This document shows positions 11,831 to 59,398 of a stretch of 64,000 nucleotides of DNA, in pieces (position 1 is the first letter of the stretch; each line of letters begins with the position of its first letter). The position numbers and the translations under genes were made by a program. The notes beneath the pieces were generated by a model. It had not been told where the DNA came from. It did no database searches and worked only from the letters and a program-made list of their open reading frames with translations. The DNA lies in NCBI GenBank assembly GCA_002049455.2, contig KV919033.1, forward strand, positions 39,843 through 103,842, written 5' to 3'. Origin of the DNA: Porphyra umbilicalis (lineage: Eukaryota; Rhodophyta; Bangiophyceae; Bangiales; Bangiaceae).

Positions 11831-13253
11831 TGTGGTGGGAGCGGCGCTTGGAGGGGAGTGGAGGACGCGCCGCGGTTCGTCTGGTAACGGTACTGCAGGT
11901 GTGGGTTCTTTTTGCAGAGACGTGCGTGGAGTCATCGTCTTTTTTTTTGGTGCATTTGACCTACTCGTTCGCAGAGTCTGTCTGCACAGTTTTTGGTGCT
12001 CCAGTAGCGCATCCTCTGTGTGTTGGAGGCGAACAAACACGTCGTTTCCACAAATAGGGTGTTCCAAATGGAAGAATGGCTAGTGCCTTGTCTGCGTCAT
12101 GAGCCGTGATGGTGCAGCCCATCACAGAGCGGAACGGTCGACCCCGGCGTTCGGAGCTACGCTGAAAACAAACGGGATCCAACCAACCCCAGCGGCGGGG
12201 TGGCCCCCGCCGACCCGATCGCGCCACCGGCGCCCGCCACCGCCGCGGCGGCCGTGGGGAGCCACGCATCGGCGGCGCGGCGCGTGGCGCCCCCCCCCCC
12301 CTTGGCGACCGCCGACCTCGCCGCCACGCGCGCCCGCCACCCGCAGCCCGCCACGCGGATCCGTCACCCTCACCGACGCGGCCGTCAGTGGCAGGCGCGC
12401 GTGCGGGGCGGCGGTGCCAGCATCGCGATGGTGCGGGGCCCGCCCTTGGTGGTCGGACCACGGGGCGCTGGGGCGGCCAGCCTGCCGCCACGGACCGGGC
12501 GGGTGTCTCGCGCGCGACGCGCTGACGCGGCCTGCGGCGAGCGGCGTCGGGCGGACCGCAGCGGCAGCGGCGGACGTGTGTGTGGCGGCGTCGGCACGGT
12601 CAGTGCCGCGGCGCGCTTGCCGTCGCAAAGGAAAGAGTGATGGTGGAGGTGGGGTTGGGGTGGAGGGAGATAGAAAAGACGGGGGGGGGGAGCGGCTTGC
12701 GTTGCCTCTTGGCTCGCACTCTGTGGTGTCGCGCTTCCACGCGGCGCGAATCAACACGCATACGGTGGAGGCCGTGGTCCGGACCACAAGGGACGTGTCC
12801 CTTGAGCTCCCGTTGCTTCTGCCAGAGACTGAAACAGATATTGCTGTCTTCCCAATTTTGGCCGATGTGGTCGAAGTCAAGACAGGCTCTTGGTCAACTG
12901 CCCATTGGTCCAACGACTTTATCCGGCTGAATGGATGGCTGAGAAACTGTTTCGCACAGTTGATCATCCCTTTTGACATCGACGGCATCGGCCAAAATTG
13001 GGAAGACAGCAATACTGAAATTGATCCGGCCCAAGCTCTTTTCCAACACGAGTCTTGTGTCCCCGCAACGGATCTCTTCACCTCCGCAACCGTGGCCTTC
13101 CACCACCGTCTTCTTCGAGCTCCCCGAGCACCGCGCCGACCCGGCCGTTCCCCCCCCCCCCCCCGCGTCACTCACCACCCGCCCCCGCCATTTTCCCCCC
13201 GACGCCGGGGCGGCAGCGTTTGTCGCCATCCTCCCCGCGCCGCCTCGCCCGCA
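11831..13253. other. Intergenic with an inverted-repeat element
   Basis: No gene seen. An open frame continues upstream of the methyltransferase start from 12099, but its translation is compositionally random and it crosses a transposon-like inverted repeat (12840-13013). I read it as 5' flanking DNA. Confidence 0.55.
12840..13013. repeat. MITE-like element with inverted terminal repeats
   Basis: The 28 bases at 12840-12867 (starting ATTGCTGTCTTCCCAATTTT) are exactly reverse-complementary to 12986-13013. Weaker complementarity continues about 15 bases inward. Total length is about 174 bases with no coding capacity. The low GC differs from its surroundings. I could not fix a target-site duplication. 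Confidence 0.85.
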
Positions 13254-14804
13254 ATGAACGGGCACGTCGTCTTACCGGCCGCCCCCCAGGCAGCCTTCTT
13301 GACCGCCCCGCCGCGGCTGCCGCGGACCCCGCCCGCGTCGGCGGTACAGACGCCCGCGGCGCGGCGGCGACACGGCGTCAAGGCGCCGACCCCCCGCGGC
13401 CGCTCCACCCCCGCCTGTTTGTTTGGCAAGGGCGACGATGGCCCGCGGCGGTCGGTCTTTACGGACGCGCCCCCCCCCCCCCCGCCAGGGGCGTCGCCCG
13501 CCGCCGACGCGGCGGCGGCCAGCCGCGCCCTGGAAGCGTGGTTGGTCGACAATGGGGTGTACCTGTCGGACAAGAGCACCTGGGGGCGGTCGCCGCACCC
13601 GCTGGCCATCGCCAATGAAACGACCGACGACGGGGAGCCGTCTGGGCGGGGCCTCGTCGCCATCAAGGGCGTCGTCCAAGGGGAGCCCCTCTTCAAGATC
13701 CCCCTCAAGGTCCTCCTGACCAAGGAGGTGGCCGTCGAGGCGTTCGGCAAAGCGGTCCTACCCCCGTCGACCGACGACTTTATCGCCATGGCCGCCCTCC
13801 TCATCCGGGAGCGGTCCCTCGGCGCCGCCTCCTTTTACGCCCCCTACCTCGGCGTGTTGCCAGCCGACGAGGAGCTGACGCCCCTCTTTCGGTGGTCGGA
13901 GGAGGAGCTCACGCCGCTGGCGGGGAGCCCGACGGTGGCGGCGGCCGCGAGCCTCCGCCGCAAAGTGCGTGCCGAGTTTGCCGACGCGGACGCGGCGGAC
14001 GGCCTCTTTGGCCGCTCCCGGTCGGTGTTTGACCCCGCTGTCTACACGTATGAGGCGTGGGAGTGGGCGTTTGCGGTGCTCTTCTCCCGCCTGGTCCTCC
14101 TCCGCGGCAGCGGCACGCTCGCGCTGGTGCCCTATGCGGATTTGCTCAACCACAACCCCTACTGCGGCGCCTACATTGACACATTCAAGGAGAACTTTAC
14201 GGGGGAGGGCTACGTGTGCGTCTTTACGGACCGCCCGTACGGCAAGATGGAGCAGGTGTACACGACGTACGGACAAAAGACGAACGCGGAGCTGCTGCTG
14301 TTGTACGGGTTTGTCGTTGATCGCAACCCGTACGACGCGGTGGACGTGTCGGTGGCGGTCGACGAGGGGGACCCCCTGTACGAGCGAAAGCGGGAGTTTT
14401 TGGAGGGCGCCGGCCAGGAGGCAGGGACGTCCGTGGCCTTCCCGCTCTACGCCGACCGCTACCCGATGGAGCTCATCGAGTACCTTCGCTTTTGCGTTGC
14501 GTCGGAGGCGGAGATGGACGGGGGCGCGGATTGGGGGGACTTTGTGTCGGAGCGCAACGAGGTGTGCGTCGCGCAGGCCCTCCTCGGCGCGTGCACCGCC
14601 GCGCTCGAAGGGTACGCGCGGACGCTTGAGGAGGACGATGCGCTCGCGCGCGACCGGGGATTGTACGCGATGCTGACGCTCAAGCAGCGGCAAGCGCTGC
14701 GGCAGGTGCGGGGGGAGAAGCGCATCCTCAAGCGCACCATTGCGAACACGCAGCGGGAGATGCAGACGCCGCGGATGCTCTTTACGTCGCTCAACGCGGC
14801 GTAG
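13254..14804 (+). CDS. SET-domain protein lysine methyltransferase, Rubisco LSMT / SETD3 type, probably plastid
   Basis: Single-exon 516-residue protein. The start chosen at 13254 gives an N-terminus rich in Ala, Pro, Arg and Thr without acidic residues (MNGHVVLPAAPQAAFLTAPP...), which fits a plastid transit peptide; the frame is open upstream but that DNA is transposon-like. SET hallmarks: GRGLVAIKGVVQGEPLFKIP (N-SET), LVPYADLLNHNPY at about residues 291-303 with the NHN motif, and YTTYGQKTNAELLLLYGFV, the conserved C-SET tyrosine region. The following helical region with LKQRQALRQVR resembles the Rubisco-LSMT substrate-binding domain. Known members methylate Rubisco large subunit, fructose-bisphosphate aldolase or actin histidine; the substrate here cannot be told from sequence. 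Confidence 0.88.
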   Translation: MNGHVVLPAAPQAAFLTAPPRLPRTPPASAVQTPAARRRHGVKAPTPRGRSTPACLFGKGDDGPRRSVFTDAPPPPPPGASPAADAAAASRALEAWLVDNGVYLSDKSTWGRSPHPLAIANETTDDGEPSGRGLVAIKGVVQGEPLFKIPLKVLLTKEVAVEAFGKAVLPPSTDDFIAMAALLIRERSLGAASFYAPYLGVLPADEELTPLFRWSEEELTPLAGSPTVAAAASLRRKVRAEFADADAADGLFGRSRSVFDPAVYTYEAWEWAFAVLFSRLVLLRGSGTLALVPYADLLNHNPYCGAYIDTFKENFTGEGYVCVFTDRPYGKMEQVYTTYGQKTNAELLLLYGFVVDRNPYDAVDVSVAVDEGDPLYERKREFLEGAGQEAGTSVAFPLYADRYPMELIEYLRFCVASEAEMDGGADWGDFVSERNEVCVAQALLGACTAALEGYARTLEEDDALARDRGLYAMLTLKQRQALRQVRGEKRILKRTIANTQREMQTPRMLFTSLNAA

Positions 14805-17115: not shown

Positions 17116-18678
17116 ATGGTCAACACTGTGGCGCCAGGTGCTCCCCACCATCATGGCACTGCCCGTTTTGTGGGACCTTTCGCCTGCCGCCGCTCCGGCC
17201 CCATCTCACGGCTGTTGGTTTCCCTAGCTGCAGCTGCTCTCTTCGCACCGCCATCGGTCGCGGGCTCTGCGGTGCGGTCGCGTAGTGACTATGGCACGGG
17301 GCCAAAGCTGCAGCTACCCAAGATGGTGCTTGGCAGCGGTGCGTCGGTAGGCGTCCGCGACGCGCTCTCTTCCCTGTCGGCCACCGCCTTCCCCACCGTC
17401 GTCCGCCAAACGAGCGGGCAACTCGACCTGATGACCGGCCCGTATTCACTGGCGAGCGACCAGCCAACGAATTGCCCATCGTCGGTTACCGTCGGCACTG
17501 AGGTCGTTGTCACGCCCACAGCCTTTGCCATCCCACCCAGCGCCATGACGGTGGGCGGCGCCAAGTGCGTCGCCGACGTGGCCGGCGCGCAGATTGTTGG
17601 CGTGCACCACGCGGGGCTGACCTCGTTGGCGGTCAACGTCAGCCTTGCTGCAGAACTACAAGCCGCCCATCCCAACGGCGGCCTCGGCATTCTGGCAGAC
17701 GGGGGCTGGACGTGCGGCAAGAGCACAGTGGCAGAGGATGTGCTGGTGGTCCTGTTTGCAGTCGCGTCGACCTACACGATGGGCATCGGAGAGTGCACGT
17801 ACTTGCTGAGGGCCGGGTCACCGCCTCTGCCGCCTGCACCCGTTGTGCCGGACCCCCCGGTGCCGCAGCCGACGCCCGCGCCAGCGGTGACGGCCAGGCC
17901 AGTCGCCCCATCCCCCGAAGCGACGGCGGCCCCGGTGACACCGGGTTTTCCAGGGGTCGGGATCGGCAACCTCCCGTCGGACACCGTTGGTGGCACAAGC
18001 GGGACTGCGCTTCCGGCGCCCGGCGGCGCCGCTTGCTTCCCCGCCGCTGCGCGCGTCGAAACGCGGGCGGGCGGGCACGTGCGCGTCGACGCCCTCCGCA
18101 TTGGCGACGTGGTTCGCACGTCGGCTGACAATTGGTCACCCGTGTATGCCTTTTCGCACGCCGACGCCGCCGCGTCGGCGGTGTACGTGACCTTGACGAC
18201 GGCGGCCGGCCGCTTGACGCTCACGCCGGGGCACTATGTGCCCGTCGGCGTCGCACCGGCGGGCGGCAACGGCGGGGATGGGCGCGACGCGCGGTGCGCG
18301 CCGCGCACGCGCCTCGTTGCCGCGGGCGCCGTGCGCGTCGGCGACGCCCGCTGGTCGCTCGCGCCGGCTGCCGCCAATGGCACCGCGGCGGCCGCGGCGG
18401 GCGGCGCGTGGGTGCCCGTCACGGCGGTCGCCGCGTCGGCCGCGCCCGAGCGACGGGGGCTGTACAACCCGCACACGCTCGACGGCGCGGTGCTGGTCGA
18501 CGGCTTTGCCGCGTCGACCTACACGACGGCGCTCGCGCCACGGCTGGCCGAGGCGGGGCTCGCCGTCGCGCGGCTGGCCTACCGCCTCGGCGCGGGGGAG
18601 ATCGTCGGCGGCCGCCTGGTGGCCGCGCTTGGGGGCGTGTCGCCGCCGGCATGGGCGGCGGGTGCGCCGGTGAGTTAA
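17116..18678 (+). CDS. Secreted protein with C-terminal hedgehog-type Hint (Hog) autoprocessing domain
   Basis: 520 residues, one exon. The ATG at 17116 places a hydrophobic signal-peptide-like segment (ISRLLVSLAAAALFAPPSVAG) near residues 30-52. Residues 53-240 form an uncharacterised extracellular-type domain with several cysteines. A Pro-rich linker follows (about 240-270), then the Hint module. It opens GGAACFPAAARVETR with the presumed nucleophile Cys307 and continues DALRIGDVV, LTLTPGHYVPV (the conserved TxxH-like block) and VPVTAVAA. It ends in LYNPHTLDGAVLVDGFAAST, matching the Hog C-terminal block NPxTxxGxLxVDGxxAS. Family knowledge: such modules cleave themselves before the Cys and release the N-terminal part. 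That this copy is active is inference. Hint/Hog proteins occur outside animals, including red algae as I recall. Confidence 0.85.
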   Translation: MVNTVAPGAPHHHGTARFVGPFACRRSGPISRLLVSLAAAALFAPPSVAGSAVRSRSDYGTGPKLQLPKMVLGSGASVGVRDALSSLSATAFPTVVRQTSGQLDLMTGPYSLASDQPTNCPSSVTVGTEVVVTPTAFAIPPSAMTVGGAKCVADVAGAQIVGVHHAGLTSLAVNVSLAAELQAAHPNGGLGILADGGWTCGKSTVAEDVLVVLFAVASTYTMGIGECTYLLRAGSPPLPPAPVVPDPPVPQPTPAPAVTARPVAPSPEATAAPVTPGFPGVGIGNLPSDTVGGTSGTALPAPGGAACFPAAARVETRAGGHVRVDALRIGDVVRTSADNWSPVYAFSHADAAASAVYVTLTTAAGRLTLTPGHYVPVGVAPAGGNGGDGRDARCAPRTRLVAAGAVRVGDARWSLAPAAANGTAAAAAGGAWVPVTAVAASAAPERRGLYNPHTLDGAVLVDGFAASTYTTALAPRLAEAGLAVARLAYRLGAGEIVGGRLVAALGGVSPPAWAAGAPVS

Positions 18679-19210: not shown

Positions 19211-22200
19211 CTACTCGCGCGGGGGCGGCGGTGGCGACGTCTCGCCGCGTCGCGTCCCCGCTTCCCGGACGGCGCGTGCCTGCGCTGCCGACGGGGGGGC
19301 GGCCGCAAACGCGTCCGGGTCAAAGGGCACAAAGTTTGCAGACTGATCAAAGTCGACGGGGAGGCCGCCGAGAAGCTCGGCCGGGCCGGGCAGCGTCCGC
19401 GCGAGCGGCAGCGGGGCCTGGCCGCCACCTCCGTAAGCAGCGCCCGCGGCAGCGCCGGCGCCGGCACTGCCGAGATCGCCACTACCGCCAGGTCCCGGCA
19501 ACCAGTCGGCATAGCTGCCTGTTGCAGACGACGCCGCGTGATCGGCACTGCCGCCTGGACCGCCATCCGGAGTCCTGCCGGCCGGCCGCTGCGCCGCACG
19601 CTCAGCCCGCTGCTGTGCCAGGTCCATCGACTGAAACGGCTGGTACGTCTCAAATGGGTCGAGGGGCCTGTCGTCGAGCGCCATCCGGAAGAGCACGCCG
19701 TGGGTGACCTCCTCCACCCCCTCCCGTGGGTCCGCAGAGGCGCCGCTGGGCGGGGCGGGAAAGTCGTTCTCGTCGAGCGTCGCGAGCCGACCCGTGCCGT
19801 AATCCCGCGAGTCGCTGGCGTGACGCCAGGTCTCAACAGCGCTGTTGATAGCCTCGCGGGGCTCGTCCTCGAGGCTCTCCTCCTCCCCATCCTCCACGAC
19901 CGGCCGCACGGGCATGTAGGCGCCGGTAAGGGGCTCGTACGACGCCCCGCCCATGAATGTACCGCCCACATACATGGGACCACGTTGAACCGTGCCGCTA
20001 CCGCCACTGCGGCTGGCCGCAAAGCCCGGCATGCCGCTGGGCGCCACAGCAGCGGCGCCCAAATCAATGCCCCCAAAGTCCTCCATCACGGGCACTCGCT
20101 CCCGCCACGCGAGCGGGGACGGGTTGGGCGCGGAGCAGCTGTATTGGTTGGAGGCCATCGGGTCAGCCGCGCCGAACGTGGAGGTATCCAATGAGGGAGG
20201 GGAGATCATTACGGCCGCCGACAACGACGAGTCAACACGACCCGACGGTCGCAACGACAAGCCCCCAGGATCCATGGACGTGGCACCCGTTGCCGCCGCG
20301 TCAAATGGCCCGCTCGAGGTTTGGGCCGAGGCGGACGAGCCGCCCGTCACGCTCATTCCCGAGGACGTCTGCGGTTGCGGTGCAGCAAAGCTCGCCTCCA
20401 AAGGGTTGTGGGGAGTCGACCGTGGCGCCATCAACGCCCGCCCAACCGCCCGGGTGACCGGCGGGGGCGACCACGGGACGCCCCCCGGCAGCACGCCGTC
20501 TGCCGAGAGGAACGGGTGCTGCATCGCCTCGGACGGTGACCACCGCTCAGTGGGATCCACCTGCAGCAGCCCCGAAAGTAAATCGATGAACGACAGCCGC
20601 AGTGCCAGCTCCTTGGCACGCCCCTCAGACGTGAGCGCGTCGCGTTCCGGGGCGGCGCCTTCCCCGCCGCTGCCACCATCCCCACCACCCGTCGCTGCTC
20701 CATACGGGTAGGCCAGGATGATGTCGCGCAACTGCGTGTGCGGAAAGTACCGCTTCCACGGCGGCAGTTGCGTGCCGGTCTCCGCCTCGTATACCGCCGT
20801 GGACTTGAGGACATACTCGTGCACCGCTGTGGGGGGCGATGACGACGACCCAGTCGCATCCGGTGGCGGCGCCTCGCGGTTGGCGCCAGGTGGATGGAAG
20901 AAGCGCGTCGCGTGGCGACAGGAATCGAGAAAGGAACGTGGGGGTGAGCCCATCATCTCCACAATCCGGGCAACCATGTTGAACTCGTTCTGCCCTGGAA
21001 AGAGCGGAATGCCGAGGAAGAGCTCACCCGCGACGCAACCCAGCGACCACATGTCGATCTTGGCGTCATAATCCCGCCCGAGTAGTACCTCTGGGGAGCG
21101 GTAGAAGCGTGACTGCACGTACGAGTAAATGACATGGTTCTGCTGGCAGGCTGATCCGAAATCGATCAAGACTACGTCGACTGCGTTGAGGGAGCGCAGC
21201 AGGATGTTCTCCGGCTTGAGGTCGCAATGGATTACCTCGGAGCGCCGCAGCACGTCCAGTGTCGGCAGCAGCTGATTGAGGAAGGACCGCAGCATGTCGA
21301 GCGAGACCCCCCGATACGCGTTCTGCTGCAGTAGCTCAAACAGGTTGATGGAGAGGGGTTCAAAGACCAGACACAGGTGGCCGCGGAACGTGAAGTGCGC
21401 AAACAGCTTGACGATGTGCCGCGTCGAGTCGGCAGGGTTGTTCTGCGCGAGCAGCCGCAGGATCGCAATCTCCACCCAGGCCTGGTTGAGGTATGCCGGC
21501 TGGTTCTTGATGACCTTGACCGCCACAATCGCAGATGATTGCTCGTGGCGGCAGCGGGTGACTTGTCCAAACGTGCCCGTACCGAGCATGTCCAAAACCG
21601 TATACTGGTCCCCCGTTGTTGGCGCCGACAATACGTCATTGACAAACAGGATATAGTCGTGCTCCTCGTTGTCAAAGCCCGAGTTGTACACTCCAACGTC
21701 CGGTCTGCACGGGGAAGGGGTGGCGGATGAGGTTCACAAGACAAGGACAGCAAGAGGCACACAGGCGAGACGAGAGCGTGGCAACCACAGAAACACGCAG
21801 ACCAAAGCAGCGGAGCACCACGACAGTAGCACACAAACATGCACACGACAGTCAACATCCGGCCCAAGGAGGTGGAAGGAGAGCACCACACTCAGTGGAA
21901 CCAGGACAGCTCGCAACAGGCAACCGTACCACCGCAAGAACATGAGCAAGAGTAACACGAGATGACCAACCACGTACTTGGTAAGACACCGGCGTGGCGT
22001 CAGCCCCGTATCAAACTCAAAGTCGGGGTTGATGGCGCAGTAGGTCGCCAACAAGTTAACTGTCGCGGCCGCAAACAACCGCGGCTGCGCCGCGGCCGGT
22101 GGCCGGCGGGCGCCACCCGCCGTCCCCGGCTCGCCGCCCCCTAACCTGTCGCCTGCGGGTGGGTGTATTGGGTAGCCGCCCCCGCCGCCGCCGACGCTGC

Positions 22201-39869: not shown

Positions 39870-42083
39870 CGGACGGGGCCGTACAAGCGGCGCCCCGTCG
39901 CGGCGCTCGTAGCGCGAGTCGGCGCCCACCCACCCACGCGCCGCCGCCGGTGGGTCAGCCCCACCGCGCTTGCCAGGCGCCGCGTCAGCTGCTGGGGCCG
40001 CGCGCGGCCCCTGCGCGCCGGGGCATCGAAGCGTCTGCGTGTCCCCCCCCCAGCCGAGCGCGTTGACGTTGGGGCGCTGCGGGCGCCCGCCGGCGGCGCC
40101 TCCGCCATGGGCCTCAGCCAACTGATCCGGAGCGCCTCGCCCGCCCGCGGCACTCGCACGCCGGCTTGACACCGTGCCAATGCAGGCCGGGACTATAGCG
40201 TCCCGAGGTAGGGGCACGCGGCTGCCATGCGCCGGAGCTGGCGGCGCGGCGGCACCCACAGCCGCCGCGGCGACGCTGGCGGCACAGCAAGGACCGGGCG
40301 CGGTAGTCAGAGCGGGGAGCACGGGTGATATCTCACACAGCTGACGAGGCCGCGTACCAATCGCGCCCCACTCGCCACTTGTGGTGGGGCCGCGTTGCAC
40401 CGGCGGGGGCACCGGCCGGTACAGCTGTACACCGGCTCGCAAGCGACTTGATGCCAGGGTGTCGACCTTGCCTTCAATCAATCCAGATTCAAGGCCATGT
40501 TTTCGTTGAAGGCAGCTACCAAAGACAGCATAGTCGTATTCAACCCTCTCGAACTGATTGTTCATGTGCTGTGAACTTTGTGACCAAGTCGCGTTGACAG
40601 CGGCATTGTCGTCGGCGAGCCGAAAGAAGTTATAGAAAAAAGGCCATACAACCAAACACTATTCACACCTGACCTGACAAACAAACAAGCTGGTGCAGGT
40701 CGCCACGCACCGACGCCGTGCCGGACGCCCACGCCCGTCTCTGCTACATCGCCTCATGGTCCCTGCTGTCCTGCGTGCCCTCGCCTCCGCTTTCTTATAC
40801 GTCGTACCCTCTGATGATGCTCTACGTGCTGCTGTACTGCTGTGGGTACACTGTCTGTTGCTGCTCCGTCGCAGTGTCGTCTGCCACATCAGGCATACAC
40901 AGCGTCATTCTTCGGAAAACATTGGGAGGGAGTGAAGAGGCTGGTGGGGAGGTCGAATTGGGAGGCGTGGGTGGGACCTCGCGCCTGGCGTGGCGTCGGT
41001 GGTCGAAAGCTGCTGCGGCGGTGGATGTGCAGTATCACACGCATACCAATGGGCCGTTTCCTATGATGGCAGCTCTCTTTACCATCAGCAATGGGCTGCA
41101 TGGGCTAGGCGAGAGGTGGCAAACACACCAGGCAGCGCGTGCCACAGCCCAGTTGCAGGGAGCACCCTTGAAACCAATCAACTGCTGCTCGTCTCAAGCG
41201 TTGGTCATGGAGGCACCCCGACGGTCCTTCTTCCACACAATTCGACGCTCTCACTTCATCATTGAGGATACCTAAAAGGCGCGGATTTCTCCAACACCTG
41301 ATTAAATCAGTTGACCCTGACTTTTGTCGCACTTTTCTGGGATGAATCTCGCGACCCTGACTTGAGGCGCACTTTGAGACCCACACAACGGCGCGCGTGC
41401 GGAGCCCTTCCACGCGCCGGCTCACGAGCGACGCTGCGGGCGGCCGGCGGGCGGGCCCGACGCCCGCGTCGGCACGCACCCGCGGCCCGCCCGTTGCGCC
41501 GCGGCGGGCGCGCGCCCGCGGCAACCCCCCCCGACGTCGTCCCCACACGCCCGCGGGGCGGGCGGGCGGCCGGCCGGCGCCCGCCGCGCCCGCCGCGCCC
41601 GCCGCGTCCGCCGGGCGGGCGCCCCCTCGCCGCCCCGCCCGCGGGGCTCGGGAGCGGGGCCGCCGCCGCCGCCCCCGCGCCGGCCCCCGCGCGCGCTCCC
41701 GCCGCCGCCGCCTCGACGGGTCACCGGGGAACCCCCCCCCTGCCCCCCCCGGCCCCCCGCGGCGGCGGGCGGTCGCGCGCCCCCCTCCCGGCCCCCGCGG
41801 CGGCGGGCGGTCACCGCCGCGCGACGGTCGCGCGCCCCCCCCCCGGCCCCCCGCGGCACGCGCCGCGACACGCGGACCGCAGCTTCCGGCGGGCCGCGCC
41901 CGCCGCCGCCGCCGCACCGGGCGACCCGACCTCGCGGGGGGCCGCACGGGCGTCGCCGTCCCGCCCGGCCGCCCCCCACCCCCCTCCCCCCCCCCCCCCC
42001 CCGCCCCGACGCAAGCCCCCACGTCCGGCCAACGCCGCACGCGGCCGGCGGCAGCCCCCCCTTCCCCCCCATCCCCCCCCGCC
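39870..42083. other. Intergenic
   Basis: 39870-40655 is an open but coding-poor extension of the hydrolase frame. 40660-41300 has ordinary composition and no gene. At 41312 and 41352 a phrase GACCCTGACTT...GCGCACTTT / TGTCGCACTTT is repeated in tandem. 41400-42083 is extremely GC-rich and its open frames have random Arg/Pro-rich translations. Confidence 0.45.
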
Positions 42084-42714
42084 ATGGCGGCGGCCACCAC
42101 GTCCACGGCGGGGGTCCCCCCCCCCCCCCTCCCCCCCCCTCGAGGGGCACCCCCCCCCGCACCCGCCGCCGCAGCCGGCAGCGTCTTTCGCGTCGACCTC
42201 GAGGCGGTTGCGCGGGAGCTCGGCGTGCCGTCGGCGGCGGCGCTGCTCGACGCCCTCGCCGCCGACGCGGCGGTGCCGGTCGTTGGGGCGGACCCCGCCG
42301 ACGCGGGGTGGGGGGGGGGGGGGGTGCTTGGGATGGGGGGGGGGGTGCCGCCTGGGCGGGGGGGGGGGTGGGGTTGCCGGGGGGGGGACGCCGGCGGCGG
42401 CGGCGGCGGCGGGTGGGAACCCCCACCCGGTGGGGAGGGTGGCGCCGGCGTCAAGGCCGCCGCCGCCGCCGCCGCCAAGACCGACGCCCCGCCCGCCGGC
42501 CGGGAAGGCGACACGGCCGACGGGGTGGCGCACGGTGCGGCGGCGATGGGGGTGGCGGAGCCGCCGCTGCCGCCGCTGCTGGTGCTGCCGACGACCGGCT
42601 GGCGCCCGCCCGCCCGCTCCCCGTCGGCCATTGCCGCGGCGGCGACGGGGGAGGCGTGGTCGGGGTGGGGCCTCCTCGCCGCCGACGGCGGCAGCGGCGA
42701 CGGCGGCGACGGGC

Positions 42715-42750
<36 letters not shown>

Positions 42751-43887
42751 CCGCCATCCGTGGGGCCACCCCCCCAGACCTGCTGCCGTCGAGGGCCACC
42801 GGCGCTGGGGGGTTTTCCCCCCCGCCCCCCACCCCCGCCGCCGCCGCCTTGACCGGGTGGGCGTCGCCCGCCCCTCCCCCCCCCGCCACCGCGTGGTGGG
42901 CGTGGGCGGCCGCCCCCGACGACGGGGACTCGGACACGGACGGGGGCGGCGGCGGCCCGCCGTCGCCCCCGACACCCGTCACCCCGCTAACGGCGGTCGT
43001 TGTTGGCGGCTCGCCCCGCCGGTATGGGGCGACCGGGCACCTCCCGTGGCGCGCTGAGTGGGTCGATGACGCGGCGCTCGAGCACCTCGACGGCGGTGGG
43101 GGAGGCGGGGGGGGGAGGGGGGTGGCGGCGGCACGCCGCCGCCGCCGCCGACGCCATTGTCGGGGGCGGGTGCCGCCCCGCCGGCGCTCGTCAGCAGCTT
43201 TTCCCGCCGCACCGTGCGCTACTCGACGACGGCCTACGACTTGGGCGCGCCCGACGCGTACGCGGGGACGCCCGGGAGTTCGCCGGTGCGGGGGGAGGCG
43301 GGCGGCCGCCGCGGCGGCGGCGGCTGGTTTGGCCCCGACAGCAGCGGGGAGATTGTCCTCGCGGCCGCCGGCGGCGGCTCCTCGGGGGACGTGTGGCGGG
43401 CGGCAGCCGCGGCGGCGGCGGCGGCGGGGGCGGGGGGGGCGCCCCCGCCACCGCCGCCAGCGGCGGCCCCACGTCCATGCTCCTCGTCGTCCCCCCCGCC
43501 GTCGGGGGAGGCGGTGGCGGCGGCGGCGGCGGCGGCGGGTACCGCCCCCCTACCGCCGCCGCCGCCGCGGCTCCGCCGACCGCAGCGACGCGTCTGACGC
43601 CGACGGCTGGTCCTCGTCGACCGTCGGCAGCGCGTCGGCGGCCGACGAGGCCGGGCGGCGGGGCGTCGGCCGCCGCCGCCGCGCCGGCAGCAGCCGCTTG
43701 GCCGCCGTCGGCGGCGCCGCCGGCAGCGCCCCGGCCCCCGCCCGCCACCGCCCACAGTGGTCGCGCTCCTTCCCCGACTTGCCGGCGCTGCCGGCGCTCG
43801 CCACCCTCGACGCGTCCGTCCACGTGGCGACGCCCCCCCGCCGCGGCGGCGGCGGCAGCGGCTGGCGCCCGTCCCCGCGCACGCCGG

Positions 43888-43918
<31 letters not shown>

Positions 43919-44786
43919 GACGCCGCCGGCCGCGGCGGGCGCGCCCGCCCCGCAACTCCTCATGGCCGTGTCGGCAACGGTCAACGCCGCCGGCTACGCG
44001 CTCCTCGCCGTCGCGTCGCTGTCGACGGCGCCGCCCGGCATTGTTGCGCTCGGCGCGCCGGCGCTCGCCGGCGCGGCCGGGGCGGCCGCCGTCGCGGCCG
44101 CGGCGGCGGTCGTGACCGCCCCGCTCGCCGCGTACGAGTGGGTGGTGACGCCCGCGGGGGGGCGCGCGGCCGCGTCGCGCGGTCGGACGGGGTGGCTCCT
44201 CGGCGTGGCGGCGGCGGCGCAAGCGGCGGGCGGCACGGCGTTGGGGTGGGCGTGCCGCCGCGCGGCGGCGGGGGCGGCGGCGGCCGCGGCCGCGTCGGCC
44301 GCCGCGGCCGTTGCCGCCGGTGGGGGTGCCCCCGCGGGTGCCGCTGCCGCCGCCGCCGCCGCCGCCGCGTCGGCGGCCGCGGCCGCGGCCGACGGCGCGG
44401 CGCTGTTGCTGCACCCCCGCCTGTGGCTCGTGGCCAATGGCCACGCGGCGCTGGCCGTCGCGGCGCTCGCCGTCGGCGGGCACCCCGTGTCGCGCGGCGA
44501 GGGGGCGGGCGTCGTCCTTGCCGCCGCGGGCGTGACCGCGCTCGGCGCCTCTGCCGGGCCCACCGGCGGCGGTAGCAGCGCCGCGGCGGCGGCGGCGGCG
44601 GCGGCGGCCGCCGCCGCCGCCGCCGTGACGGTGGTGGCGGTCAAGGAGTTGGCGGTCGCGGCGCCGCTGTGGGTGACCGTCGGGGGGCTCTTTGCGTCCA
44701 CCGCCGCCGCGTATGCGGGGGTGGCGGCCGCCGGCGGCGTGGCCGCCGTGGTCGCCGCCGCCATTGGCAACGGCGGCGGTCGGGGC

Positions 44787-44821
<35 letters not shown>

Positions 44822-45690
44822 AGCGTCGCCGTCGGCGGCCGACATTGCGGCGTCGCTCGGCACCCCCGCCGGCGCCGCCGCCGTCGGCGCGGCGGTCGTC
44901 GGCACCGCCGCGGCGGTTGCCGCCCTCAAGCGCCTCCCCCCCGTGGCGGTGGCGGCGGCGCAGCTGGGCGCCCCCGCCGCCCTTGCGGTCGCGGCGGCGG
45001 TGGCGGGGGCGGTGCCGCCGCCGCCGCCGGCGACGGTGCTCGGCGGCACGTTGTTGCTGGCGGGGGTGGGCCTCGCGGGCGCCGCCAGCCACCGGCGGGC
45101 GGCGACCGTCGACCTCGGCGGCCACGCCGTGCCCGTCGGCGGCGGCCACCCGGCGGTGGGGGGGGGGGTGGCACCCCCGACGGCGCGGCGGCCGCGCGGG
45201 CGCCCGGCGCGCCCGTCGGGGCGGCCGATGGGGGGCGACGCGCCGCCGGGGGGGGGGGGGGGGGCGGCTGCTGGGGGGGGGGGGGGCGGGGGGCGCCCCC
45301 GCCTGCCGCCAATGGCGAGGGGGGGGGTGCCGCCGCCGCCCGGCCGGGGCGTGCGGCCGCCGCCGCGCGTGGCGGCGGGGGAGGAGGGGGACACCCACGG
45401 GCGCAGGCGCCCGGTGGCGGGGGGGGGGGGGGGGGGTGGCGCCCGGTGGCGCCCCGGGGGGGGCGCCCCGCGTGGGGGGGGGGGGCGCGCGCCGCCCATG
45501 GGGGGGACGGGGGGGGCTGGGGGGGGGGGGGGGTGCGTGCACCACCACGGTAGCACCAGGGGGGGGGGGCGCGCGCATGTGGGGGCGCGGCGGTGGCCAC
45601 CGCCCCGACGGTGCCGCGTGCGAGCCGCGCGCGCGCGAGCGCGCTGCCCGTGCCGCGGCTCGTGGAGCGCTGTGCCACTTTCCAGTTTTT
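42084..45690 (+). CDS. EamA-like (DMT superfamily) multi-pass membrane protein, frame shifts inside, 3' end uncertain
   Basis: The ATG at 42084 opens a Gly/Ala/Pro-rich N-terminal region that includes a credible folded start (FRVDLEAVARELGVPSAAAL). Between about 43120 and 43590 the best frame is a different one (VSSFSRRTVRYSTTAYDLG, WFGPDSSGEIVLAAAGG); the original frame then resumes with ASDADGWSSSTVGSA and SRSFPDLPALPALATLD-like text. From about 43960 come some ten hydrophobic segments. LWLVANGHAALAVAALAVGG, WVTVGGLFASTAAAYAGVAA and the terminal LPPVAVAAAQLGAPAALAVA...ATVLGGTLLLAGVGLAGA fit the two-repeat EamA / drug-metabolite transporter pattern. After 45130 the DNA is mostly G-runs and the true stop cannot be placed; an acceptor-like TTTTTTTTTATTCGTACAG at about 45690 may lead to another exon. 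Alanine content is exceptional even for this window. Confidence 0.5.
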
Positions 45691-45976
45691 TTTTTATTCG
45701 TACAGGGTATAGCCGCCGGTGCGGGGGGCGGCGGCGTCGGCGCCGCCACCAGCCTGACACCCGCCGCGCACCAGCCACGGGCCGCCGGTGCGCGAGCCCC
45801 GCATCGTCCCGCCTGGCCATCGCCTACACCTGCGCCCCCGCCGCCCCAGCTCCGCTCGTGGGTCCACCGCGTGAGTCACGCCAACCAAAAACAGTCCACC
45901 CACCACGCACCCCCCCCCCCCCACCCCCCCTCCCCCAGAAGTCTCACCGACGCCACCCCCCCCCAGACGGCCGGGC

Positions 45977-47899
45977 TTACTCGTCGACCATAATGTCGTC
46001 AAACGCACACCCGACGCTGCCGTTGAGGAAGCGGTCGAGCAGCCGCGCCGTCGACGCGTTGAACGACTCCTTGATCGGCCGGTTGTGGTAGCGCGTCTGG
46101 TTGATCTGCTGCCGCACCTTGATGGCGAGGACCTTGCCGAGCTCCACGCCCCACTGGTCAAACGAGTTGATGTTCCACACGAACCCCTCCACCGCCGTCC
46201 GGTGCTCGTACAGCGCGAGCAGCTGCCCACACGTGTAGGCGTTGCACAGGGGGAGGAGGAGGGACACGGACGGGCGGTTGCCGAGGAAGGTCACGTGGGG
46301 GATGAGCTCCTCGGAGCGCCCTTCCGCGCGGCACTCCTCCGCCGTCTTGCCATTGGCGAGCGCGTCGGGCTGCGCGAAAAAGTTGGCCACGAGCTCGTCG
46401 TGGTTGGAGACGGGCTCGCCCTCCTCGCAGATGGGGTTTTGGGACTCCATAAAGCCGATAAAGTCGCACGGCACCGTTTGGCCCATGTGCAGCAGCTGGA
46501 AGAAGGAGTGCTGGCCGTTGGTGCCGGGCTCCCCAAAGTCCACCTCCCCGACGGGGTAGTCGACGAGGTCCCCGTCGAGCGTCACGTGCTTGCCGTTGGA
46601 CTCCATGTCGACTTGCTGCACGTGGGCGGGGAACTTGAGCAGCGCCTCCGTGTAGGGGTGCAGCGCGCGGGTGCTGTAGCCGAGGAAGGACATGTTCCAC
46701 ACGCCGATGAGGCCCATGAGGACGGGCAGGTTGCGCTCCATCGGCGCCGTCTGCCAGTGCTCGTCCATGGAGCGGGCGCCTTCCAGGAAGCGCTCAAACG
46801 AGTCAAACCCGTACTGCAACGCAATCGGCAGCGCGCCGACCGAGGAGCACACGGAGAAGCGGCCGCCGACCCAATCCCAAAACGGGAAAACGTTCTCGGG
46901 GGAGATGCCAAAGTCGGACGTGCCCTCCATGTTGGTCGAGCACGCCACCATGTGTTGTGCGACCACGTCAGGGGATTTGCCCATGGCGTCGTGGAGCCAG
47001 TCGCGGAGCGTCTTGGCATTGACCTTGGTCTCCCGGGTCGTAAACGTTTTGGAGATGACCACGACGACCGTCTCTTCTGGGTCGAGGTCCCTGGTGTTGC
47101 GGAGGACGTCCACGGGGTCGACGTTGGAGAGGAAACGGAGGGTGCGCCCCGCCGCCGCCTGCGCCGCGTCCCGCTCCGTCTTGAGCGCCTCGTGCACAAA
47201 GTCCGGGCCGAGGTACGAGCCGCCAATGCCAACCGCAATGACGTTTTTGATGATCTTGCCGGTCGCCCCTCGGTGCTCCCCCGAGCGGACGCGCTCCGTA
47301 AAGGCGCGGATGCGGTCGAGGACGTCCCACACCTCCGCATTTACGTCGACGCCATCAACGACGAGGGCGTCGCCTTTAGCCGCCCGCAACGCCATGTGCA
47401 ACACCGACCGGTCTTCCGTCACGTTGATGTGGTCGCCGCGGGCCATGGCCGCCATCTTGCCCTGCAGGTTGGCCGCACGCGCCAAGTCAAACAGCAGGTG
47501 CATGGTGTCCTTGGTCACGCGCTGCCGCGCGTAATCAAGCGACACCCCATCGTGTTCGGCGTAGAGGGCCATTGTGCGGGACTCGTCGAGAAGCAAATCC
47601 CGCAGGTGCGACACGTCAATCACGTCCCGCTTGTGCGCCATGAGCGCCGCCCACTCGGGGGTGGCGGATATCAGGCGGGAGGCGGCGGGATCCGACGGGG
47701 GGGTCGGCAGGGGGGCGGCGCCCGACCGCACGGGCTCGGCGGCAACCATCTGAGGGTGGGAGGCGGTCGCCGCGCCGTGCAACCCAGCCGATCGCCATGC
47801 CAGGGGGCGCCGCGTCGACGCGCAGCCGACCGCGGCCGGCGTCGAGCGGCCGAGGCGCGCGGCAGCGGCCGACGGCGCGACAAACGCAGCGTCCGCCAT
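45977..47899 (-). CDS. GPI: Glucose-6-phosphate isomerase, probably plastid-targeted
   Basis: Interconverts glucose 6-phosphate and fructose 6-phosphate (glycolysis, gluconeogenesis, starch and sugar metabolism). 640 residues, intronless, start at 47899. Family signatures are intact: NVIAVGIGGSYLGPDFVHEA (sugar-phosphate loop), SKTFTTRET, the PROSITE-type DWVGGRFSVCSSVG, and NINSFDQWGVELGK near the C-terminus. The catalytic glutamate and histidine regions (EPGTNGQHSFFQLLHMG) are also present. The first 75 residues are Ala/Arg/Ser/Pro-rich with few acidic residues (MADAAFVAPSAAAARLGRST), which cytosolic enzymes lack, so plastid targeting is likely. Its 3' end lies close to, and convergent with, the EamA-like gene. 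Confidence 0.96.
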   Translation of the reverse strand: MADAAFVAPSAAAARLGRSTPAAVGCASTRRPLAWRSAGLHGAATASHPQMVAAEPVRSGAAPLPTPPSDPAASRLISATPEWAALMAHKRDVIDVSHLRDLLLDESRTMALYAEHDGVSLDYARQRVTKDTMHLLFDLARAANLQGKMAAMARGDHINVTEDRSVLHMALRAAKGDALVVDGVDVNAEVWDVLDRIRAFTERVRSGEHRGATGKIIKNVIAVGIGGSYLGPDFVHEALKTERDAAQAAAGRTLRFLSNVDPVDVLRNTRDLDPEETVVVVISKTFTTRETKVNAKTLRDWLHDAMGKSPDVVAQHMVACSTNMEGTSDFGISPENVFPFWDWVGGRFSVCSSVGALPIALQYGFDSFERFLEGARSMDEHWQTAPMERNLPVLMGLIGVWNMSFLGYSTRALHPYTEALLKFPAHVQQVDMESNGKHVTLDGDLVDYPVGEVDFGEPGTNGQHSFFQLLHMGQTVPCDFIGFMESQNPICEEGEPVSNHDELVANFFAQPDALANGKTAEECRAEGRSEELIPHVTFLGNRPSVSLLLPLCNAYTCGQLLALYEHRTAVEGFVWNINSFDQWGVELGKVLAIKVRQQINQTRYHNRPIKESFNASTARLLDRFLNGSVGCAFDDIMVDE

Positions 47900-56536: not shown

Positions 56537-59398
56537 ATGGCCTACCCCGCCGCTCTGCATGTCCCTCCTGACTACGCATGTGCGTCTTCGTCCGATGGCG
56601 GTGCGTCGAGCGTCGACCCTGGCGAAGAAGCCATTGATATCGCGAGAGCGCGCGCCGGGGACCGACGCGCGATAGCGCGGGTCGCGCCGCGCATCATCCG
56701 CAGGACGTTTCGGCTGTCGCGGCGCCGTCGCCGTTCTGCTGCTGCAGCTGTCATGAGGGCAAACCGAGAGGCAGTGCGCCGTGCACAGCACGACCGGCAT
56801 CTTCAGATTCGTCGTGGCGCAGCTCCGCTGCCCGTTGAGTGCGCCGACTCCGCTCAAGACGTCATTGCGCCGGCTGCCCACTGTGTTGGCGCGCCCTTGG
56901 CGCCAGTCCCGAAGAGACCACGCCTGGCAGAGACCTTCTCGCCACCTAATTCGGGGGAAGCGGGGGCGGGTGCCGATGTTGCCATCGCACCTTCCGGCAT
57001 TGAACCGCCCATCGACCCATCTGTCGATGTGCCGGAGCGTACGGCCGTTCAGCCGACCATGCTCCACGCAGTGCGACCTCCTCCTCGGATGACCAGCTAT
57101 GCGACTGTCCGCCGATCGTGGCGGCGAGTCGAGGCCTCTTCGCGGGGCTTCGTCTTCCAGCACACGGGGGATTCTTCTCGTGCCAAGGGCACGACGGCGC
57201 GTGGGCTCGACGAGCACAAGGAGTCGTCAACTGTCAGCTCTGACGGCAGCGACACCTCCGGGGACGAAGCAAGCAGGACAGGGAAAGACTTTCACTCCCT
57301 TGCTGCGCGTACTCTCAGAGCCATGCACCGAGAAGCTCTTGCGTCTGTTGTGGCTGTGCTGTGTGCGGACGCTGTCGTGCTCCGTGTCGTGCGTCGTTTT
57401 CTCCGCGTGCGTCGGTCGGCCGTCCGTCATATGCTTGACCAGGCGGACGCCCGTCAGGCCGCCGCGCAAGAAGTCCAACGGGCGCGGACGAGCGCCGCTA
57501 CCCGACACTCGTCTCTGAAACGGCTAACGGGCGGCGCCTGCCTCGCGGCAGTGTTGGCGGCGGGTGCACTGGCAGAGTCCCAGGAATCTCCGTCTGACGT
57601 CGACGCGTTGACCGGGCCTCGCCCGGTCGACCGACGTGGGCGCGCGTTCCAACCCGGCACTGTCCCCTATTGTGCTGACGCTTTGCGTGCAGGCGTCGCC
57701 GGTGCCCGCGCTGTCAGGATGGCTATGCGTGCTGCGGGGGGCGCTACTTTCCCGTCCGTGTCCCCACTCTTCGGGACGCTGCTGGGATGCCACCCTCTGC
57801 GGCACAGTCAAGCGGCCGGTTCATCACGTGCAGACGTCGCTGCTGCCCCGGGGCTGGTCGACTCGGCGGACCGTCCCCGTGACGCGTTTCTCCGATTGTT
57901 CTGTCGGTTTTGCTTTGTGTACTGCTGCCGTACTCACGGCACGACTATGCGTGACACGCTCGTCGCGCCGTTCCCGTCGACACCCGTTGTTTTTCCATTG
58001 GATCCACGCCGAATGGAAACAGCGGCGGATGGCGGCGATTGCGATTTTGACGCCCAAGGCTCGGCGTCTGTTGGCGGGTCAGATGGTGGTCGTGCGCGTC
58101 GCGCCCGCGCCATGCATGCGGCAATTCGTGTCGCGGCCGGACCTTGCCGTGACTGCCGACTCGACCTCCGCAGCCGCGCGGCTGTTTTCGTGCACGGATG
58201 CCGCACGGAGGTTTGGACGGTCGAAGACGTCGAGCTCCTTCGCGCCGCAGTTCGTATTTTCGGGCCATTTGATACGTGCCGCATGGCCCGTTTCGTTCCC
58301 AACTCGACTTGTCGCCGGGTGGCTGAGTACCTGGTGGACTGGGACTGGCCGGGCGCCTGGCGCGAGGAGCCCACAACACCGCGACCACCCCCCCGACGAG
58401 ACGCTCTTCCGTCTCACCCCCCGGTGCTATCCCTCACCAACAGCAGTCAAGAGTCGGTCGTGAAGAAATCTGCGCCCTTCATTCCGTGCTGGCATGTCGG
58501 GCCGTGCACGCGGTCCAGTTGCCAGTGCGTGGCAAATGACGTACCCTGTGAGAAGCAGTGCGGGTGTGCTCGTACCCGGTGGGCGTCGAGGGTGCCTGTC
58601 GTGCTGGAAGCCGGCGAGGCGGCGTCCACATCCATCCCCGCCGACGGCTGCGCGCCGACGGATGGGTCGCTGTTTTGCAGCAGGCGCATATCCTGCTCGT
58701 GTCCCTCGCCGTCGCGCTGTGAGACGGACGCGTGCCCTTGCTATGCCGCGGACCGTGAGTATGACCCAGACGCGTGCATGATGTGCGGTGCCCACCTCCA
58801 TCCCGCGTCAGACGTTGACGGGTTGACCACGGGATCAGTTGCCGCAGAGTCTCCCATGGCCCGATCCACTGCGGCCGCGACTGGAGCCTATTGGCGCCTG
58901 ATGCGGTCGCCGCGCCCGACCGACCTGGGTGTCATGCCAGGGCGTGGCGGTGGTGCGTCGCCGAACAGTCCGCCGATGGTTAGACGCTGTCGCGACATTC
59001 AAGTGCAAGTTGGGGCCCGAGTGCGCCTCGTGCTCGGCGTGTCTCGTGCTCACGGGCTTGGCGTCTTTGTCGCCGAAGCAGCTGGGGCCGGCGACTTTGT
59101 GGGTGAATACGTCGGGGAGCTTGTTTCCGCCGCGGAGGGGCACCGTCGCGGTCGTGCTTACGACGCCGTGGGGGTGAGCTATCTCGCCACTCTGTCGCAG
59201 ACAACCATCGTCGACGCCACTCGGGTTGGAAGCCGGACGAAGTTCATCAACCACAGCTCCGACTCGCCCAACCTGGAGATGAAGTTGCTTAGCATTGGTG
59301 GGACCATTCGTGCCGCTCTGTTCGCTTCGAGGGATTTGAGCGCCGGAGAGGAGGTGTTTTTTGACTACGGCTATGCTCTTGACTCATGGGTGCAGTGA
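56537..59398 (+). CDS. Enhancer-of-zeste homologue, H3K27 methyltransferase of PRC2
   Basis: Catalytic subunit type of Polycomb Repressive Complex 2. 953 residues, intronless, start at 56537. Regions: a basic, disordered N-terminus (about 1-330) in which I cannot recognise the EED-binding part; a SANT-like stretch around residues 560-620 (VEDVELLRAAVRIFGPFDTC, MARFVPNSTCRRVAEYLVDW); a CXC domain from about residue 652 (CWHVGPCTRSSCQCVANDVP then CEKQCGCA ... CSCPSPSRCETDACPCYAAD ... DPDACMMCG); and a C-terminal SET domain from about 830 (VRLVLGVSRAHGLGVFVAE, GDFVGEYVGELVS, KFINHSSDSPNLEMK, RAALFASRDLSAGEEVFFDYGY). The catalytic NHS and FFDYGY motifs are present. The SET domain ends the protein without a post-SET cysteine cluster, as in E(z). 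An insertion sits within the CXC between CGCA and the second cysteine set. Confidence 0.92.
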   Translation: MAYPAALHVPPDYACASSSDGGASSVDPGEEAIDIARARAGDRRAIARVAPRIIRRTFRLSRRRRRSAAAAVMRANREAVRRAQHDRHLQIRRGAAPLPVECADSAQDVIAPAAHCVGAPLAPVPKRPRLAETFSPPNSGEAGAGADVAIAPSGIEPPIDPSVDVPERTAVQPTMLHAVRPPPRMTSYATVRRSWRRVEASSRGFVFQHTGDSSRAKGTTARGLDEHKESSTVSSDGSDTSGDEASRTGKDFHSLAARTLRAMHREALASVVAVLCADAVVLRVVRRFLRVRRSAVRHMLDQADARQAAAQEVQRARTSAATRHSSLKRLTGGACLAAVLAAGALAESQESPSDVDALTGPRPVDRRGRAFQPGTVPYCADALRAGVAGARAVRMAMRAAGGATFPSVSPLFGTLLGCHPLRHSQAAGSSRADVAAAPGLVDSADRPRDAFLRLFCRFCFVYCCRTHGTTMRDTLVAPFPSTPVVFPLDPRRMETAADGGDCDFDAQGSASVGGSDGGRARRARAMHAAIRVAAGPCRDCRLDLRSRAAVFVHGCRTEVWTVEDVELLRAAVRIFGPFDTCRMARFVPNSTCRRVAEYLVDWDWPGAWREEPTTPRPPPRRDALPSHPPVLSLTNSSQESVVKKSAPFIPCWHVGPCTRSSCQCVANDVPCEKQCGCARTRWASRVPVVLEAGEAASTSIPADGCAPTDGSLFCSRRISCSCPSPSRCETDACPCYAADREYDPDACMMCGAHLHPASDVDGLTTGSVAAESPMARSTAAATGAYWRLMRSPRPTDLGVMPGRGGGASPNSPPMVRRCRDIQVQVGARVRLVLGVSRAHGLGVFVAEAAGAGDFVGEYVGELVSAAEGHRRGRAYDAVGVSYLATLSQTTIVDATRVGSRTKFINHSSDSPNLEMKLLSIGGTIRAALFASRDLSAGEEVFFDYGYALDSWVQ

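Follow-up and report, generated by a model that had tools for sequence, protein, structure and literature searches.

A hedgehog-type Hint domain and an uncharacterised N-terminal domain in a putative secreted protein of Porphyra umbilicalis

Introduction

What might a hedgehog-type Hint domain be doing at the end of an algal protein that carries no hedgehog signal? The question is raised by an open reading frame (ORF) on the plus strand of a 64,000-nucleotide stretch (hereafter, the window; C273:39843-103842 in the 83.8 Mb assembly) from the red alga Porphyra umbilicalis. The encoded protein is a 'non-Hh Hog protein', whose domain order, fold, residues and family we establish here. We find it somewhat better than an even bet that the gene makes a secreted, self-cleaving and most likely lipid-modified precursor.

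Architecture of the window protein

The ORF starts with an ATG at 17116 and has 520 codons, followed by a TAA stop at 18676-18678. The start codon is not certain, because the reading frame continues upstream without a stop to 16954 or beyond and the related protein P0002 begins 15 residues earlier. The features of the gene, all on the plus strand, are as follows:

17116..18678, +: ORF for a non-Hh Hog protein precursor of 520 amino acids (from the ORF and from P0002, 80% identical over the full length)
17212..17265, +: signal-peptide-like segment, about residues 33-50, with hydrophobic LLVSLAAAALFA at 33-44 and a putative cleavage site
17359..17811, +: N-terminal domain, residues 82-232, with conserved C120, C151 and C200 and a fourth Cys (alignments, leave-one-out profile)
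17812..18030, +: Pro/Thr/Ala-rich linker, residues 233-305 (sequence); predicted to be disordered, with a predicted local distance difference test score (pLDDT) below 50 over 232-304
18031..18033, +: codon of Ala306; predicted scissile bond Ala306-Cys307, by homology with the residue preceding Cys258 of fly Hh
18034..18525, +: Hint domain, residues 307-470, with Cys307, His348 at the general-base position, T370-P-G-H373, and Thr468 replacing the second Cys (profiles, alignments, model)
18526..18675, +: adduct-recognition-like tail, residues 471-520, with a single predicted helix at 475-505; shorter than the animal sterol-recognition region

An earlier note on this DNA had read it as a hedgehog-like secreted layout, and indeed a signal-like segment, an N-terminal domain, a Pro-rich linker and Hint follow each other in that order. 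The hydrophobic LLVSLAAAALFA comes after a basic stretch, in an n-region of 32 residues, and is consistent with a signal peptide; the protein is presumably secreted.

The identity of the Hint domain is firm. Pfam Hint (PF01079) matches residues 306-492 with an E value of 1e-17 and a score of 64.9 bits, above the cut-off (29.7). Hint_2, under its own cut-off, was the only further Pfam match in the protein at E up to 1, and the Hedge signal domain gave none at that threshold; the note was therefore right in that the N-terminal part is not a hedgehog signal. Searched alone against a library of sequences of solved structures, the window sequence reached Hh at E 0.39 only. A profile built from eight algal Hint sequences found hedgehog chains first, namely Drosophila Hh (6td6, 5.9e-23; 1at0, 2.1e-20) and Sonic hedgehog (7e2i, 6.3e-20), with the best intein far behind at only 0.011. 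In the weak single-sequence alignment (E 0.39 for the whole sequence), AASTYTT and then LAEAGLAVARL of the window protein are paired with AASCYAV and LAHWGLAPMRL of fly Hh, and the algal profile spans this same stretch. The Cys of motif J is here a Thr, a position at which this residue is also replaced in other red algae and in mosses (PMC2362128).

Structure prediction points the same way. Over 140 residues, the Hint model can be superposed on that of fly hedgehog (1AT0) with 1.5 Å, and Cys307 and T370-P-G-H373 are in place in both sequence and model, which bears out the geometry anticipated in the note. Two active-site residues of Hh, Asp303 and Cys400, are not kept, and the window protein has His348 and Thr468 instead. 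By eye, the intein-type His-Asn is absent at the end of Hint, and the protein ends about 50 residues beyond it. The model of this tail has one helix (475-505), of low confidence (pLDDT <50) from 492, versus the helix-loop-helix of Hh.

The N-terminal domain

The N-terminal domain lacks a Pfam match in the window protein and in the 58 Hint-containing ORFs that we read from the genome. The note placed a domain at 53-240; a domain is present, and its conserved span is narrower, about 82-232. Iterated profiles recovered it in other Hog ORFs. Its three Cys (C120, C151 and C200) are invariant in alignments of 25/25 and 13/13 sequences, and are found in 32, 33 and 33 of the 33 sequences of a larger one.

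In a final set of 57 N-terminal stretches from the same genome, with one locus entered twice, the profile matched 24 at E <1e-3, compared with none of 57 reversed and none of 1140 shuffled controls; the best control over all rounds reached 0.013. As the seeds contain members of the family, each member was then dropped together with all its relatives of at least 40% identity. In these leave-one-out searches 20 of the 24 stayed at E <1e-3, the window protein at 3.6e-8, three fell to 0.08-0.26 and one failed. The domain is thus common to the window gene and 19 paralogues, which answers positively the note's question about such paralogues. The three at 0.08-0.26 (L041, L042 and L059) fit the Cys pattern by eye and are possible members; L022 is the one for which the profile failed.

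Copies of the domain also exist apart from Hint. Searches of the genome with single proteins found five and fourteen places, the queries' own included, and six of these were read. L051-L053 are near-copies of the front end of BU14_0051s0046 and L054 is a shorter copy, with no Hint match in the stretches read; one of them, L053 (C273:7000-9900), lies on the same contig as the window gene, outside the window. Likewise, L055 is an open frame of 277 codons with the domain (1.3e-9); Hint is absent from the 2.5 kb read, and the contig has no PF01079 row. The L056 stretch gave no match to the N-terminal domain. A search of the protein database for Hint-less relatives returned none at E 0.001, although it was a weak one, limited to 7993 word-sharing candidates of 0.55-1.75 times the query length.

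The fold of the domain is poorly modelled in the window protein (block means of 40-76 pLDDT over 101-230) and better in P0008, where block means are 61-90 over residues 31-210 except for one at 48. Rows from the search of solved structures are Hint and intein chains. Some from a viral library extended over 400 columns at root mean square deviations above 18 Å, and we did not read them as matches.

A large Hint family in one genome

PF01079 produced 81 match rows in the P. umbilicalis assembly. Merging three same-frame pairs of rows (on C16, C393 and C140) leaves 78 places, four of which are under the cut-off, so that the genome contains about 74 loci, a count to be taken as a lower bound. We read 58 Hint ORFs, corresponding to 57 of the 74 loci and one of the four weak places; this sample, non-random, comprises the 30 top-ranking ORFs and most of those that follow. 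Pfam Hint matched in all 58.

Cys1 occurs in 55 of 55 ORFs, the remaining three lacking that part of the domain, and the His of TxxH in 58 of 58, its first position being Thr in 22 and Ser in 36. The position of the hedgehog general-base Asp is occupied by His in all 58 ORFs, as well as in all 35 proteins from two database searches, including that of a green alga; the preceding residue is Ser (36), Thr (21) or Ala (1). Finally, the second-Cys position has Thr in 31, Ala in 11, Cys in 5 and others in 11 (one of them a gap). A loose pattern located this motif in 42 ORFs, and in 25 of them the tail beyond it measures 45-64 residues, the extremes being 16 and 529; by our own count, it has about 71 residues in fly Hh and 99 in human.

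Several of the 58 ORFs have other domains in frame with Hint: fasciclin in two, and carbonic anhydrase, imelysin and DOMON in one each. A thymidylate kinase domain in another could perhaps belong to a neighbouring gene in one frame. A cluster of seven Hint rows in about 20 kb includes the region C243:33500-52500 (L057, L058), with a different, short N-terminus.

Divergence before and within Hint

P0002 (80% identity, full length) and P0003 (81% over 87%) are the closest of 26 protein matches to the window protein, its own included; others come from P. umbilicalis (among them P0014, which is BU14_0051s0046, and P0012, which is BU14_0342s0018), Pyropia vietnamensis, Rhodosorus marinus and the green alga Raphidocelis. 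The window gene was compared with its relatives by protein identity alone: that to P0002/P0003 is 80/78% in residues 82-232, 73/61% in the linker and 89/89% in Hint. The comparisons of nonsynonymous (dN) and synonymous (dS) divergence that follow are among paralogues of this genome, and their tests are post hoc.

In all 18 pairs of paralogues with Hint identity of at least 65%, dN before Hint exceeded that of Hint, although these pairs share genes and their choice by Hint identity already biases dN of Hint downwards. Up to 330 codons before Hint were taken, with aligned lengths of 18-316, and this part may include untranslated sequence. In the C243 cluster, dN before Hint was the higher in five of six pairs.

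Two groups of young duplicates, L041/L042/L059 and L013/L014, differ before Hint mostly by nonsynonymous changes and have a conserved Hint. In the former, 37 of the 155 ectodomain codons vary nonsynonymously and 3 only synonymously, compared with 6 and 1 of 37 in the linker and 4 and 6 of 186 in Hint (Fisher p 0.0009, ectodomain vs Hint). The tandem pair L042/L059 shows 17 nonsynonymous and no synonymous differences in the ectodomain (p 0.012), the Hint counts being 3 and 0; for L041 vs L042 alone, p was 0.052. L013 and L014 have 18 nonsynonymous and no synonymous differences from codon 56 to Hint (p 0.08, 0.037 for two parts), and 0 and 2, respectively, in Hint.

Diversifying selection is not, for all that, a general rule, because only four of the 18 pairs, from two gene groups, have a nonsynonymous excess before Hint. 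Copies of BU14_0051s0046 compared with L009 gave dN/dS of about 0.37-0.51 in 3/3 pairs, and near-identical copies of this gene had dN > dS in one of three. Within the C243 cluster, dN before Hint was lower than dS in all six pairs.

Predicted processing and its alternatives

In the known chemistry of Hint, Cys1 forms a thioester and a base-activated acceptor frees the N-terminal product (PMC4695875, PMC9163320). By analogy, the window gene would make a secreted non-Hh Hog precursor in which, in the secretory pathway, Cys307 would attack the carbonyl of Ala306 in an N-S acyl shift aided by Thr370 and His373. An acceptor activated by His348, located where animal Hh has Asp, would resolve the thioester. 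This would free from Hint a product made up of the N-terminal domain and the linker (about residues 51-306), most likely with a C-terminal lipid ester, probably of a sterol, that would keep it at the membrane or wall surface. We hold self-cleavage to be highly probable, and to ligation of a sterol or other lipid we give rather less than an even chance.

In fly Hh, D303A blocks the second step (transesterification) and not the acyl shift (PMC4695875), and D303H keeps activity and widens sterol use (PMC9163320). An Asp here has been called Hh-specific (PMC4695875), and its place is taken by a conserved base in 58 of 58 paralogues, which suggests a real second, acceptor-dependent step. Cholesterol, moreover, is the principal sterol of red algae (PMC8657749).

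Several observations weigh against this explanation, which rests on sequence and model. Ser, Thr or Ala precedes the base in 58/58 ORFs, where human SHH has Leu242, and the Leu242 to Ala mutant of SHH has less than 5% cholesterolysis (PMC7906309). Tails are mostly short, and the model of the window protein shows a single helix there, at falling confidence. At the second-Cys position the window protein has Thr, and only 5/58 ORFs have Cys; mutating this Cys in fly Hh inhibits both steps (PMC4695875). TxxH, too, begins with Ser in 36/58, though with Thr in the window protein. Because Leu242 is replaced and the tail is short and has a single helix, the animal sterol site appears not to be conserved, and an acceptor other than sterol is quite possible.

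These same features, the short one-helix tail and the Ser/Thr/Ala at the Leu242 equivalent in 58/58, would suit a Hint that cleaves and whose thioester is resolved by water, yielding a self-releasing secreted protein without lipid. We regard this as unlikely, though the most serious competitor, since all 58 ORFs retain a possible base at position 46, and since the selective effect of D303A (PMC4695875) ties base conservation to an acceptor step; Asp303 of fly Hh is, however, also coupled to Cys258 (PMC9163320), which weakens this objection. The thioester might otherwise be taken by a hydroxyl of a wall polysaccharide or glycoprotein, so that the N-terminal domain becomes covalently anchored in the extracellular matrix. 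Fasciclin, carbonic anhydrase, imelysin and DOMON, the partners of other Hint domains in this genome, are mostly extracellular domains, and a reduced sterol site would also fit. We nonetheless consider wall anchoring improbable, as the window protein has no other Pfam domain and the portions of the literature cited here offer no precedent. A Hint that is inactive and only structural would agree with the absence of demonstrated activity for any red-algal Hog protein in those sources, yet it is very hard to reconcile with Cys1 and both His positions being invariant among paralogues so divergent that mean column identity is 9%, and we give it hardly any credence.

A secreted, self-cleaving and probably lipidated precursor thus continues to be our preferred explanation. 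A wider extrapolation, which we consider improbable, is that the roughly 74 loci encode secreted precursors sharing a single conserved, His-based Hog module, which would lipidate or wall-anchor many different ectodomains, in part fast-diversifying. They would form a set for surface recognition (of gametes, self/non-self or microbes) that uses the maturation chemistry of hedgehog yet is independent of it. Three places in the genome match both Patched and sterol-sensing families, two of them strongly. Proteins of the NPC1 type would give the same matches, and we therefore claim no hedgehog pathway.

Relation to known Hog proteins

The earlier note thought of an undescribed system, a view that does not hold: Burglin reported Hog proteins of red algae, Porphyra yezoensis and P. 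haitanensis among them, as early as 2008 (PMC2362128), and papers on further red-algal Hog genes followed in 2023 (PMC9812998) and 2026 (PMC13353863). The proteins of Burglin share with ours Hog motifs J and K, with the motif-J Cys changed to Ser/Thr/Asp, and an upstream region that is conserved between two Porphyra sequences and was matched nowhere else (PMC2362128). That work reports two Hog ORFs per Porphyra species, in contrast to about 74 loci in one genome here, where we also define an N-terminal domain in the window gene and 19 paralogues, plus Hint-less copies; the domain may correspond to the upstream region of figure 13 in that paper.

Hog and Kelch+Hog proteins of Cyanidiophyceae likewise have other N-termini on Hint, a Thr/Pro/Ala-rich connector and gene duplicates, and differ in that the N-terminus is in part Kelch, with 2-17 Hog genes per genome, many of them subtelomeric and many with expression mainly in the haploid phase (PMC9812998, PMC13353863). 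Animal Hedgehog (1AT0; 6TYY for the D303H mutant) has the same Hint fold, Cys1 and TxxH, whereas the window protein lacks the hedgehog signal domain and has a His base, Thr for the second Cys and a shorter tail. By description, the nematode warthog, groundhog, quahog and ground-like genes offer a parallel, with varied N-termini on Hog together with N-terminal-only genes (PMC2362128).

Expansions of Hint are already in print, with over 290 genes in a diatom (PMC12803021). Our literature searches, which did not cover the genome paper of the species, found no report on the size of the P. umbilicalis Hog family. As far as these searches tell, the new elements are the number of Hog loci in Porphyra, the His base present throughout, the shared N-terminal domain with its Hint-less copies, and the uneven evolution. 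The natural His matches the laboratory variant D303H with widened sterol use, and would thereby allow a direct test of the ancestral Hog reaction. The number of genes and the unequal evolution of their front and back halves offer, in turn, a tractable case of one processing module serving many ectodomains.

Other genes in the window

The Hog gene is adjoined by a convergent protein kinase gene, and three further regions of the window stand out:

12099-14804, +: ORF with Rubisco-LSMT substrate-binding and SET domains
19211-21691, -: protein kinase gene (PF00069, 2e-47), which we take to be DYRK-like
42001-46000: G+C content of about 84%, with long frames that overlap on both strands
56537-59398, +: ORF with pre-SET CXC and SET domains, presumably enhancer-of-zeste-like
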